A stretch of 64,000 nt of DNA from Woeseiaceae bacterium (lineage in GTDB: Bacteria > Pseudomonadota > Gammaproteobacteria > Steroidobacterales > Woeseiaceae), in assembly GCA_021773075.1 (NCBI GenBank), contig JAJFKT010000010.1:434001-498000 (forward strand), written 5' to 3'. Position 1 is the stretch's first letter. Each line of letters starts with the position of its first letter. This document shows positions 46,056-55,751 of this stretch, piece by piece. The notes beneath the pieces are model-generated. The model was not told the origin of the DNA, ran no database searches, and saw only the letters and a program-made list of their open reading frames with translations. Both the position numbers and the translations under genes were made by a program.

Positions 46056-46361
46056 ATGAAGCCCAATAGAAACGAATCGAATCGCAAGCAACACCGCGCA
46101 CAGGAAGATCTTTTCGAAGCAATATTCGCTTTGCAAGAGACACGTGAAGTGCGTCTGTTTTTCGAGGATTTATGTACGCCCGCCGAACTTCAGGCATTAG
46201 TAGACCGCTGGCAAGTGGTTGAACGTCTGCAGGAAGACCTGCCCTACAGAAAAATCCACGATCTTACGGGCGTTAGCGTCACAACTATCGGTCGCGTTGC
46301 TCGCTGCCTTAGTGATGGTTCTGGCGGCTATCAGACAGCGATCGACAGAATTTCCCACTAA
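46056..46361 (+). CDS. hisR: TrpR-family (YerC/HisR-type) transcriptional regulator
   Basis: A 101-residue all-helical protein of the TrpR superfamily. The DNA-binding part is LCTPAELQALVDRWQVVERL then LPYRKIHDLTGVSVTTIGRV, a helix-turn-helix of the YerC/YecD type. In Xanthomonadales a TrpR-family protein next to hisG is regarded from comparative genomics as the histidine-operon repressor HisR, and the gene here is ten bases from hisG. It is therefore the likely local regulator of hisGDCBHAFE; the effector (histidine or another signal) is not known from sequence. The symbol is given by context. An inverted repeat lies just upstream and may be its site, implying autoregulation. Confidence 0.82.
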   Translation: MKPNRNESNRKQHRAQEDLFEAIFALQETREVRLFFEDLCTPAELQALVDRWQVVERLQEDLPYRKIHDLTGVSVTTIGRVARCLSDGSGGYQTAIDRISH

Positions 46362-50715: not shown

Positions 50716-51312
50716 ATGCAAGTCGCGATCATCGATAGCGGTGGCGCAAATATCGCGTCCTTGCAATTCGCTTTCGAGAGGATCGGCGTAGCTGCACTTC
50801 TGACAACCGACACCAATGTGATCAAGACCGCGGATCGAGTGCTGCTACCCGGCGTCGGGGCGGCCCGCGACGCAATGACACGACTTCGGGATGCGGACTT
50901 GATCGATACAATCCGAGCGCTTAGACAACCGGTATTAGGCATCTGTCTCGGCATGCAGCTACTCTGCGATGCCTCTGAGGAAGAAAATGTTGACTGTCTC
51001 GGAGTCCTGCCTGGTGTGGTGACGAAGCTTGAGGTGGCAACAGATTACCCAGTCCCAAACATGGGTTGGTGCCGCACGAAAAACCTGGCGGCGCATCCCT
51101 TGATGCGAAACATTGGCGATGGCAGCTTCTTTTATTACCTGCACAGTTATGCGCTACCGGTTTCACAGAATACTGTCGCTACCGCGGCCCACACCGAAAT
51201 TTTTTCTGCTGTCGTCTCACATGAGAATTTCGTTGCCGCGCAATTTCATCCGGAACTATCCTCATCCGCGGGTGCCCAATTGCTGAAGAATTTTGTACAG
51301 GTGGGCTCATGA
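50716..51312 (+). CDS. hisH: Imidazole glycerol phosphate synthase, glutaminase subunit
   Basis: Class I glutamine amidotransferase that supplies ammonia to HisF. The 198-residue product has VAIIDSGGANIASLQFAFER, VLLPGVGAARDAM, the nucleophile elbow VLGICLGMQLLCDAS, NMGWCRTKNL and the His-Glu pair in AAQFHPELSSSAG. The start is ATG at 50716, two bases after the hisB stop; the longer frame from 50629 is inside hisB. It overlaps hisA by four bases. Confidence 0.96.
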   Translation: MQVAIIDSGGANIASLQFAFERIGVAALLTTDTNVIKTADRVLLPGVGAARDAMTRLRDADLIDTIRALRQPVLGICLGMQLLCDASEEENVDCLGVLPGVVTKLEVATDYPVPNMGWCRTKNLAAHPLMRNIGDGSFFYYLHSYALPVSQNTVATAAHTEIFSAVVSHENFVAAQFHPELSSSAGAQLLKNFVQVGS

Positions 51313-52049
51313 GAATAATTCCGGCGATCGACCTAAAGGATGGCAAATGTGTACGCCTCTATAAAGGAGACTTCGCGCAACAAACCGAATACAGCGCTAA
51401 CCCAGCTGCTATCGGTCGGCGGTTTTCAAGCCTTGATGTTCAGGATCTGCACATAGTCGATCTCGACGGTGCGCAGTCCGGCACACAGAGCAACCATGCC
51501 ATCGTCACAGAAATTGCCGCTCAGTCCGGTCTTGATGTGCAATTGGGTGGTGGTATTCGCGACCGCAAAGATGTTGTCCGTTGGTTCGATGCTGGCGTTA
51601 GCCGCTGTGTCGTCGGCAGTCTTGCTATTGATCATCCCGCCAAGGTCTGCGAGTGGATGAAGGAATTTGGCCTGGAGAGAATTGTGTTAGCTCTGGACGT
51701 CAAACTGGACAAGGCTGGTACGCCCCTGCTCGCAACCCACGGCTGGACCCGGGATTCGGGCGTTTCACTTTGGGAATGCATCGACGCCTTTCGAGACGTC
51801 GGCGCAAGACACGTCCTGTGCACCGACGTTGCAAGAGATGGAGCGATGGTCGGACCCAATATTGAATTATACGAGGATATTCTCAGGCGCTATCCAGAGC
51901 TCGAATTGCAGGCATCCGGTGGCGTACGCGATATCACAGATATTCGCGCGCTGTCCGAAAAAGGTGTCCCGGCCGCAATTACAGGTCGTGCGCTCCTCGA
52001 CGGCAAAATTAGCGACGCTGAGGTGACATCATTCCGGCAAAACGCATAA
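51309..52049 (+). CDS. hisA: ProFAR isomerase
   Basis: Phosphoribosylformimino-AICAR isomerase, a (beta/alpha)8 barrel. The 246-residue product shows [20 protein letters not shown] with the catalytic Asp of the first strand, [44 protein letters not shown] with the second catalytic Asp, and [19 protein letters not shown]. Its last codons (F-R-Q-N-A-stop) are shared out of frame with the start of hisF, as in E. coli. Confidence 0.96.
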
Positions 52050-52798
52050 TCCCGTGCCTGGACGTTCGCGACGGTGTTGTCGTTAAGGGCGTGCAATTTA
52101 GCAACCACAAGGTCGTCGGCGATATTCTTGATCTCGCAGGAAGATACTGTGAGGAAGGGGCCGACGAGCTGGTGTTCTATGACATCACGGCAAGCCCCGA
52201 TGGCCGAACAGTCGATAGGGGATGGGTAAGCGGCGTCGCAGCAGTACTTGATGTTCCCTTTTGTGTTGCCGGTGGTATCAAGTCAGTGGCGGATGCTGAG
52301 GATGTCCTCAATAAAGGCGCAGATAAGATCTCCATCAACTCCCCCGCTCTGGCGAACCCTGATTTGATCGGCCAGCTGGCCAAACGCTTCGGTTCACAAT
52401 GTGTCGTCATCGGCATTGACAGTCGCGACGAAGACCGGGGCTATTATGTCTATCAAAATACCGGAGACCCTGACAAGAGCGCGGCTGCTGATCGATTGAC
52501 CATCGATTGGGTAACAGAGGTACAGGACCGAGGCGCGGGAGAGATCGTCCTCAACTGTATGAATCAGGATGGCGTCCGTCGCGGCTACGATACTGATCAG
52601 TTAGCAATGATGCGTACGAAATGCAGCGTTCCGTTGATTGCATCTGGTGGTGCTGGCGAAATGCCACACTTCGCGGATGTTTTTCGAGTCGCGAATGTCG
52701 ACGGCGCACTCGCAGCAAGTGTCTTTCACAGTGCCGAAATCAACATCGGTCATCTAAAAAACTACTTGGCTGAGAACAACATCAGCGTTCGAAAATGA
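52031..52798 (+). CDS. hisF: Imidazole glycerol phosphate synthase, cyclase subunit (AUU start)
   Basis: Cyclase half of IGP synthase. The conserved N-terminus [20 protein letters not shown], with catalytic Asp11 in CLDV, is fully encoded and lies upstream of the first in-frame GTG (52091). A stop at 52019-52021 closes the frame, and there is no ATG, GTG or TTG between it and 52091. The codon at the expected Met position is ATT (52031), with GAGGTGA at 52020-52026 giving ideal spacing. It overlaps the hisA end by 19 bases just as in E. coli, where the codon is ATG. With this start the product has 255 residues, near the normal 258. Further motifs are [31 protein letters not shown]-like [13 protein letters not shown] and [16 protein letters not shown]. 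Confidence 0.92.
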
Positions 52799-53108: not shown

Positions 53109-55751
53109 CTAAAGGACGATTTCCTCAGCGACGTCGCGCAAATTATACTGCGAGCTCATGACGTAACCATAAGCGCCTGCATTAGCGATCAGAATAATGT
53201 CACCTTCCGAAGTTGGCGGCAGCAATCTATCACTGCCCAGTCGATCGCCTGTCTCGCAAATTGGCCCTACCACTGTCACGGTCTCGCTAGGGGCCTCGTC
53301 CGCGCGCGTAAGATTGACGATCTCATGATACGAGCCGTACAGGGCCGGCCTGATCAAAGAGTTCATTCCTGTGCCGACGCCAATGTATTGCATCTCACCC
53401 TTGCCTTTCGTCTGCGTACAACGTGTCAGCAATACGCCAGCTCTGGCAACAAGGAATCGTCCCGGCTCGAGCCATAATTTGAACTGTGGATAGGTCTCAC
53501 GAATCTCAGCCAGCGTTTCATCCAGTCTGGCAACGTCAAACTCTTTGTCGCCCGGCTTCTCGGGCACGCCAAGACCTCCGCCGAGGTCGATAGTCTTCAC
53601 ATTTGGAAAACGCTCCGCGATCAGTACCAGCTCGCCAGCAACGCTACGCCAGTTATTCGGGTCCAGAATGCCGCTGCCACTGTGCGCATGTATGCCTGTG
53701 ACTTCAGCGCCTGCAGCCGCTACTAATCTTGCGAGTTCATCAACCTCAAACCGGGGGACACCAAATTTTGAATGTACTCCCGCGGTCTTTACGTGTTCAT
53801 GGTGGCCACGTCCCTGCCCCGGATCGACGCGAATAAACAACTGTTTGCCCTTAAATATCTCTGGCCATGCCTGCAGTGGATACAGGTTATCAAGCGTAAC
53901 CTGCAGGCCTTTTGCCAATGCCCACTGGTATTCCTCACGGGGTGCGAAGTTCGGCGTGAATAGAATTCGCCCGATATCGAAATCCGGGATCTCGCGCTCC
54001 AGCCACTCAACCTCACCCGGGGAAACACATTCGAAATCCACGCCCTCACCGGCCAGTGTGCGCAATAGATCAGGATTAAAATTGGCCTTTACCGCATACA
54101 GAATACGATCGACATTTCTTAATCCAAGCAAGCTACGCGCAGCATCAGTCACGCTGTCTCGATCATAAACATAAGCGTTTAATTGACCCTCAGCGACTTG
54201 TAGTAGTTGTTCGCGCTTCTTCATCCACCAGGCATCAGGTCGTCTCACTGACGGCTCATCACTTGCGAATAATCGCTCCCAACTACGACCAAAAACGCTG
54301 CCAGATCCGCTCTTGCGAATAATCGTTGCATGCAGCTTGCCAACGAGACGCGGGCCCTGCTGCTTATCGACGACAAAGCTCAGATTCAGATCATTTGCCG
54401 CTTGCGACATCAGGTGTATTCGCTCTTCTTCGAATACTTCGAGCGCCGGGGCAAGACGAGGAATAATTGTGCGAATTTTACGGCCGACCAGGCTGACGGC
54501 AGAGCAATTCGAGATGACCCGTACCCGACACAGTTTTTCGAGATCATCGACCAAGGCTTCCTCGACATCATCGGACAGCATTCCGTCCGATGTGTCGATT
54601 GATACGGTGACGTTTGTTTCCGAAGTCGAAACAAGATCGACCGACACGCCATTGTCGCTGAACGCCTTGAATGCTTTGGCAAGGAATCCGACCTCGTGCC
54701 ACATACCGACGCCGTCCATGGAAATGAGGGTCAGGCCATTGCGGATACAAATACCCTTAACTTGCGGCTCAACTTCTTCCGTGATGGACGAAATTACTGT
54801 GCCGGCGATCTCAGGGTTGCTGGTGCTGCGAATAAACAACGGTATACGTGACTCACGCACAGGCGTAATGCAGCGCGGATGTAGCACTGAACTACCCGCC
54901 GACGCCAGCTCTTGCGCCTCGTCGTAATGCAGGGCAACGAGCAATCGGGCAGACGGTACAACCTTAGGATCCGCCGAAAACATTCCTGGCACATCGGTCC
55001 AGACCTCGAGTCTGCGCGCTTGCAGCTTCGCTGCGAAATAAGAGGCAGACGTGTCTGAGCCGCCCCTGCCGAGCAAAACAGTCTCGCCGTTTTTGTTTCT
55101 GGCAATAAAGCCCTGTGTCAGAATAATTTTCTTGTGTGCCGACAGTACAAGCTCCAGGTTCTGGTCGGGCTCAAAGTCACACGTCGCCGATAGATAGGCA
55201 GCGGATGTTTGTCTGGCAGAATGTGGCAAGCTGGTGAGCAGATCGCGGGCATCGGACCATTGAACTGGCAGGGATTGCGACTCCAGGTAGGCGGCCCCAA
55301 GGCGCGTTGCCATCAATTCACCTAAGGCCATGATTCGAACACGCACACGAACGCTAACCTCCCTAACCAGGCGCACACCGGCAACAAGTTGCTCTAACTC
55401 ATGCAGCGTGTCATCGAGCATAATCGGCCCATCAAGGCCCAGCGTTTCTGCCAATTGGTAATGCTGAACGCGAATATTATCCAGTGCATCCGATGGATTA
55501 TCGGCAACTGCGGATTTGAGCAGTCCTTCAAGCGAGTTCGAGACACCTTTGAGTGCGGAATGAACAACCACTGGACGGAGACCGCTATTAAGGCGCTGTC
55601 GCAATAAACTGGCGATTGTTTTCCAGTTCTCAGCGCAGGAGACACTACTACCTCCAAACTTCATCACGACCCACTCTGATTCTGCGATGTCTTTCGACGC
55701 GCCTAGTAATGCGCTATTTTCAAAACTGGCTTCTTCGACCGCTGGATTCAT
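53109..55751 (-). CDS. lysAC: Bifunctional aspartate kinase/diaminopimelate decarboxylase
   Basis: An 880-residue fusion of the first and last enzymes of lysine synthesis. Residues about 25-475 are aspartate kinase: VVMKFGGSSVSC (31-36), LLGRGGSDTSASYFAAKL, WTDVPGMFSADP, then two ACT domains (GICIRNGLTLISMDGVGM; LSFVVDKQQGPRLVG). Residues about 500-880 are a PLP fold-type III decarboxylase with the cofactor lysine K555 in LYAVKANFNPDLL, GIHAHSGSGILDP, TIDLGGGLGVP and the CETGDRLGSDRLLP substrate motif. Such fusions are known from Xanthomonadales. Feedback by lysine at the ACT domains is expected. The ATG is preceded by GAGAG, which directly follows the U run of a leader terminator, so attenuation is likely. 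Confidence 0.96.
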   Translation of the reverse strand: MNPAVEEASFENSALLGASKDIAESEWVVMKFGGSSVSCAENWKTIASLLRQRLNSGLRPVVVHSALKGVSNSLEGLLKSAVADNPSDALDNIRVQHYQLAETLGLDGPIMLDDTLHELEQLVAGVRLVREVSVRVRVRIMALGELMATRLGAAYLESQSLPVQWSDARDLLTSLPHSARQTSAAYLSATCDFEPDQNLELVLSAHKKIILTQGFIARNKNGETVLLGRGGSDTSASYFAAKLQARRLEVWTDVPGMFSADPKVVPSARLLVALHYDEAQELASAGSSVLHPRCITPVRESRIPLFIRSTSNPEIAGTVISSITEEVEPQVKGICIRNGLTLISMDGVGMWHEVGFLAKAFKAFSDNGVSVDLVSTSETNVTVSIDTSDGMLSDDVEEALVDDLEKLCRVRVISNCSAVSLVGRKIRTIIPRLAPALEVFEEERIHLMSQAANDLNLSFVVDKQQGPRLVGKLHATIIRKSGSGSVFGRSWERLFASDEPSVRRPDAWWMKKREQLLQVAEGQLNAYVYDRDSVTDAARSLLGLRNVDRILYAVKANFNPDLLRTLAGEGVDFECVSPGEVEWLEREIPDFDIGRILFTPNFAPREEYQWALAKGLQVTLDNLYPLQAWPEIFKGKQLFIRVDPGQGRGHHEHVKTAGVHSKFGVPRFEVDELARLVAAAGAEVTGIHAHSGSGILDPNNWRSVAGELVLIAERFPNVKTIDLGGGLGVPEKPGDKEFDVARLDETLAEIRETYPQFKLWLEPGRFLVARAGVLLTRCTQTKGKGEMQYIGVGTGMNSLIRPALYGSYHEIVNLTRADEAPSETVTVVGPICETGDRLGSDRLLPPTSEGDIILIANAGAYGYVMSSQYNLRDVAEEIVL

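Follow-up and report, generated by a model that had tools for sequence, protein, structure and literature searches.

Translation initiation at AUU is inefficient and is opposed by IF3. The sequence-only reading that this analysis follows up held that AUU starts are known mainly from infC and pcnB. These two genes stand as examples and the list is incomplete, as the available text of two papers adds non-canonical starts in Streptomyces sigR (GTC; PMC5472188) and in S. aureus cvfC1 (AUU) and ccpN (AUA; PMC13009471). In the same portions of text, initiation at AUU is described as inefficient and opposed by IF3 (PMC5472188, PMC13009471), and the S. aureus AUU and AUA starts gave ∼10% of the AUG level in poor medium; the available part of that paper states no overprinting cause for the cvfC1 and ccpN starts (PMC13009471). 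The accessible portion of a third paper, which treats mainly gene overlaps of 4 nt and 1 nt, reports that ATT ranked seventh when all 64 codons were tested (PMC10666635); the hisA/hisF overlap considered here, at 19 nt, is longer.

Judging from the sequence comparisons described below, a large group of related bacteria almost certainly uses AUU to start hisF. The explanation that we favor, with a probability of roughly 0.8 for the whole, is that this start would be set by the overprinted end of hisA and made usable by its Shine-Dalgarno sequence together with probable coupling to hisA. Non-AUG starts with a strong Shine-Dalgarno sequence are already known as a kind; its wide conservation within an order for a biosynthetic gene, and its connection with an overlapping frame, look new. 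No paper linking hisF with initiation at AUU or ATT, or Woeseia with 'start codon', came up in a search of the open literature, where an earlier report may still exist. To our knowledge, few AUU starts other than that of infC may be conserved as widely as this one, which belongs to a central metabolic enzyme.

The hisF start in the window

The window, meaning the whole stretch of DNA analysed, comprises 64,000 nucleotides from a Woeseiaceae bacterium. On its plus strand, hisA occupies positions 51309–52049 and hisF positions 52031–52798, the latter assigned by TIGR00735 scores and family conservation and containing 255 codons from the AUU at 52031–52033 to a TGA stop at 52796–52798. The last 19 nt of hisA (52031–52049) overlap hisF in a different frame; the ATT therefore sits 19 nt inside hisA, and, counted from the A of AUU, the first base of the hisA stop codon lies 16 nt further downstream. 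In the hisA frame, base 1 of the AUU completes a Ser codon (TCA), bases 2 and 3 together with the next C form a Phe codon (TTC), and the HisA C-terminus reads ...SFRQNA. A Shine-Dalgarno sequence, GAGGTGA (52020–52026, plus strand), which is presumably complementary to the 16S 3' end, lies 4 nt before the AUU, or 7 nt when counted from its GAGG core.

The hisF frame is closed upstream by a TGA at 52019–52021 (plus strand), the fourth codon before the AUU, and continues as GGT GAC ATC ATT CCG GCA AAA CGC ATA ATC CCG TGC CTG GAC. The ATC in this frame is at 52028, and the final GAC, at 52061–52063, encodes the catalytic residue Asp11. No ATG, GTG, or TTG occurs in the frame between the TGA and a GTG at 52091–52093 (plus strand), the first canonical start and codon 21 of hisF. 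The closed frame, the missing canonical codon and the well-spaced GAGGTGA had all been pointed out in the sequence-only reading and are confirmed, as is its argument that a start at GTG 52091 would delete the first strand and Asp11. When read from the ATT, HisF retains the N-terminal strand with Asp11 and scores 328.2 bits against the NCBIfam hisF model TIGR00735 (curated cut-off, 294.55 bits), its residue 3 aligning with position 3 of the profile; read from GTG 52091, the product lacks both and drops to 286.5 bits, under the cut-off. A gene finder restricted to ATG, GTG, and TTG would thus give this locus a HisF scoring under the NCBIfam threshold. hisF is single-copy in the genome, and the sole other match in a search of that genome is hisA. 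First canonical starts are listed for 49 of the 58 long ORFs of the window.

Two neighbouring ORFs were recognised from their sequences. A 101-aa TrpR/YerC-like regulator lies directly upstream of hisG (46056–46361, plus strand) and is a possible his operon regulator. An 880-aa ORF at 53109–55751 on the minus strand resembles an aspartokinase–diaminopimelate decarboxylase fusion.

Conservation and constraint at the start codon

The hisA/hisF junction was read in relatives of increasing distance. ATT occupies the homologous codon in 62/62 HisF loci of the genus, HisF being identified in 62 of its 73 genomes, and in 17/17 loci outside the genus but within the family (which we take to be Woeseiaceae), giving 79/79 for the whole family, in which HisF was found in 79 of 107 genomes; L002, a second locus of the window's own genome, was left out. 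The rest of the order was represented by 141 loci, read from ∼181 genomes with HisF (counted by eye) and selected by genus, up to set limits on number, with no regard to start codon. Here the codon is ATT in 99, ATA in 13, GTT in one, GTG in six, and ATG in 19, of which 16 have a short hisA overlap or none and three a long one; the remaining three loci carry CCC, GCG, or ACC at the aligned codon and have a canonical start upstream. The GTT locus (L150) is a doubtful match broken in two pieces, yet it is counted among the non-AUG loci below. Another 80 listed loci had been selected by an ATH pattern and for that reason did not enter any count of frequencies; the script retained 78 of them, 71 with ATT and 7 with ATA. 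The ATT at 52031 is thus conserved among relatives, the check that the sequence-only reading had proposed.

These relatives exclude the idea that the codon is a sequencing error or an isolated mutation at 52033, to which we give practically no credence. Besides the 79/79 family loci, ATT is present in six single-contig genomes, one of a family member (G105, L066) and five from the rest of the order (G133, L293; G150, L309; G275, L129; G178, L322; G185, L088). In a sample of the class, HisF was found at E ≤ 1e-90 in 23 of 369 genomes, and all 18 loci outside the order were fetched. Of these 18 loci, all with similar HisF, 16 carry ATG at the aligned codon; the alignment puts L276 out of frame, and L279 has an apparent ATG two codons upstream (by eye). 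A contig titled Rheinheimera tuosuensis (MAG; L164) carries an ATT hisF junction like that of family f15, and its title may be wrong.

The pattern of constraint around the codon was followed through the 192 non-AUG loci whose overlap is at least 19 nt. Upstream, the encoded amino acids differ between loci at codons −1, −2, −5, and −6, the Shine-Dalgarno sequence constrains codons −3 and −4, and in-frame stops occur at codon −5 in 27 loci and at codon −4 in four. Codons 5 and 8–12 encode Arg, Pro, Cys, Leu, Asp, and Val in 192/192 loci with variable third bases, the Asp at codon 11 being present in every one, and codons 6 and 7 encode Ile, Leu, or Val. As far as this pattern tells, constraint on the HisF protein begins at this codon.

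A canonical start elsewhere, whether an in-frame TTG, GTG, or ATG upstream in hisA or the GTG at 52091, was rejected on this codon survey and the TIGR00735 score, and appears very improbable. Some in-frame canonical codon does exist upstream in 48 of the 192 loci, the nearest being 9 codons away (L066), but the distances are scattered, 123 loci run into a stop before any such codon, and in 21 the fetched stretch ends before one appears. The window itself, with its TGA at codon −4, offers none, and the GTG carries the deficits already described.

The first base of the start codon is informative in its own right, being at the same time the wobble position of a HisA codon. Where that codon is four-fold degenerate, the base is A in 175 of 180 loci and G in five, against a background of A in 740 of 6560 such positions elsewhere in the same hisA stretches, indicating that the base is held by something besides the HisA protein. 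Similarly, the Glu codon within the Shine-Dalgarno sequence is GAG in 189/200 loci (background, 266/512). The mean Shine-Dalgarno duplex energy, a predicted pairing with the anti-Shine-Dalgarno sequence, is −9.52 kcal/mol for the 192 non-AUG loci versus −4.66 for 1085 control stretches upstream in hisA; the corresponding values are −7.91 for nine canonical overlapping loci and −4.29 for 16 ATG loci with a short overlap or none. Since the canonical overlapping loci are also fairly strong, Shine-Dalgarno strength is not special to non-AUG starts. Related loci were counted separately in all these comparisons, and the argument is one of effect sizes, not p-values.

A different account would dispense with a start codon altogether, HisF being made as a HisA-HisF fusion by ribosomal frameshifting. 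The overlap of the two genes in shifted frames and the lack of anything canonical to start hisF would suit such a fusion, but it would not need the A at base 1. By-eye inspection of the overlap in the 192 loci found no conserved slippery run, codon 4 being Arg in 75/192 and third bases varying; the fusion was rejected on this ground and has only a very slight chance of being correct. Initiation at the AUU is instead strongly supported, as first proposed from the window, by the conservation of the codon, the nearby in-frame stops, the selection on base 1, and the strong Shine-Dalgarno sequence. hisF shows the sequence features expected of a non-canonical AUH start: no canonical codon able to start the conserved N-terminus, a conserved codon, and a well-placed Shine-Dalgarno sequence. 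The initiator tRNA would read the AUU at 52031 and HisF would begin with fMet, whose removal is likely given Pro2.

The hisA overlap and the choice of start codon

The start codon follows the extent of the overlap with hisA. An overlap of at least 19 nt is present in 201 loci of the genus, family, and order together, comprising 192 with a non-AUG start, six with GTG, all from genus g23, and three with ATG (L144, L146, and L359). In the 19 order loci whose overlap is 7 nt or less, or absent, there are 16 ATG starts and three canonical starts upstream (L136, L141, and L147); a non-AUG start at this codon occurs in 0/19, none being AUU or AUA. The association with the overlap, like the conserved AUU or AUA and the constraint on base 1 and the Shine-Dalgarno sequence, can be seen directly in the aligned loci. 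It amounts to a natural experiment, in which the codon is non-AUG within the order only where hisA overlaps.

The HisA residue encoded across the start codon offers a reason. It is Phe in 179, Tyr in 13, Cys in seven, and Trp in two of the 201 overlapping loci, and it matches the start: Phe goes with ATT (178) and GTT (1), Tyr with ATA (13), and Cys with GTG (6), while the three ATG loci have Trp (2) or Cys (1). An ATC start, which would make the HisA residue Ser, was not seen in the 201 loci. AUG in the long overlap would force TGN in HisA, meaning Cys, Trp, or a stop. The proposed reason why the start is not AUG is that its second and third bases, read with the base that follows, specify an aromatic residue close to the end of HisA. 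HisA proteins without the long overlap have an aromatic residue among their last 10 residues in 14 of 19 loci (by eye); the five that do not are four of one genus and L360.

The overlap alone does not exclude AUG, as ATG is combined with the same 19-nt overlap outside the order, in E. coli (L384), whose ATG stands where the window has its ATT as the earlier reading had stated, and also in three of the 18 class loci (L274, L275, and L277), all four with Cys in HisA. Judged from these junctions, the overlap would forbid AUG only with an aromatic HisA residue at that place, and the HisA residue is what differs in this order.

On this evidence we infer that hisF initiates at AUU, that initiation is coupled to hisA, and that the HisA residue is the cause of the unusual codon. 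The start would be overprinted by the last hisA codons, AUU giving TTC (Phe) and AUA giving TAC (Tyr) in HisA, so that two demands would meet in it, A at base 1 for initiation and T or A at base 3 for the aromatic residue. The weak codon would be offset by a strong, selected Shine-Dalgarno sequence at good spacing, and probably also by coupling to hisA, whose ribosomes would finish close downstream; the coupling is suggested by the anatomy only, that is, by the 19-nt overlap. Order lineages with a short overlap or none would then use AUG. The locus suggests a way for one gene's reading frame to determine which start codon its overlapping downstream neighbour can use.

A tree of 193 rows was used to count independent changes. 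Within the order, three supported independent pairs differ in overlap and the start follows in ∼3/3; with the outgroup there are four supported differences, and the start follows in ∼2.9/4, too few for significance. Irrespective of branch support, overlap differences number seven within the order and 10 with the outgroup. ATA requires nine changes on the tree, of which at least five are forced by supported branches.

Two variants of the junction were observed. The six GTG loci of g23 (L113, L306, L307, L308, L310, and L314) keep the 19-nt overlap with Cys in HisA, and GAGGAA replaces GAGGAG in five of them. The hisA stop is displaced in 22 of the 141 order loci and in one of the 17 family loci outside the genus, giving overlaps of 31, 37, or 55 nt; the start in these loci (L104, L107, L124, L129, L299, L331, and others) is ATT in all but one, L350, which has ATA.

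Possible regulation by IF3 and comparison with known systems

The AUU might alternatively be kept for regulation, with IF3 repressing hisF and thereby tying histidine/purine flux or the HisH:HisF ratio to the IF3 level. Precedents exist: according to the available text of PMC5472188, IF3 controls its own gene infC, which starts with ATT or ATC, and represses sigR, which starts with GTC. The codon is widely conserved in the order, and the conserved start position of infC is occupied in this lineage by ATC in 11/11 printed loci, of 12 searched; in L369 and L370 a TTG lies in frame two codons ahead of it. A second control, pcnB, yielded its N-terminal motif by script in three of 11 loci tried, of 12 fetched, and was left out of the argument. 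Regulation would nevertheless leave unexplained why non-AUG occurs in 0/19 order loci lacking the long overlap and why the third base is T or A, never C, in 201 loci, although infC here uses AUC. The strong Shine-Dalgarno sequence also suggests compensation, not dampening. We therefore consider retention for IF3 control unlikely. In the infC of the window's own genome (L271; C37:507128–507628, minus strand), no ATG, GTG, or TTG lies between a TAG and the conserved N-terminus, and the ATC follows GGAGGA at start distance.

Sensitivity of an AUU hisF to IF3 is expected from the known biochemistry of AUU. Selection for that sensitivity is another matter: the sequences lean against it, the weak codon being absent where the overlap is short or gone. 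The proposal of a new IF3 control point, or of tuning of the HisH:HisF ratio, has accordingly lost ground, having gained no positive evidence while the third base was found to follow HisA. Somewhat less doubtful, though still improbable, is that most of the order keeps an IF3-sensitive, hisA-coupled AUU or AUA on a central metabolic gene, with HisF synthesis depending on ribosomes arriving from hisA, as so weak a codon would seldom initiate by itself. If true, HisF would be locked to HisA by the weakness of its start codon, and histidine/AICAR flux would respond to IF3.

Among the known systems, infC (AUU, AUC, or AUA) resembles hisF in combining a non-AUG AUH start with a strong Shine-Dalgarno sequence. 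It differs in being autoregulated by its own product, whereas hisF is a metabolic enzyme gene whose start lies inside an overlap and has a third base that varies with the HisA residue. S. aureus cvfC1 (AUU) and ccpN (AUA) are likewise conserved AUU/AUA starts with an extended Shine-Dalgarno sequence; according to the available text, they were mapped by ribosome profiling and reporters (PMC13009471). Streptomyces sigR, with GTC, shares with hisF a non-canonical start missed by annotation, and the part of the source available describes this start as setting SigR against RsrA through IF3 (PMC5472188), where for hisF the link to IF3 is a hypothesis. A further counterpart is the hisA/hisF junction of E. 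coli, which has the same 19-nt overlap in the same frames as the window: E. coli has ATG and a HisA ending in ...CWQNG (by eye), the window ATT and a HisA ending in ...SFRQNA.
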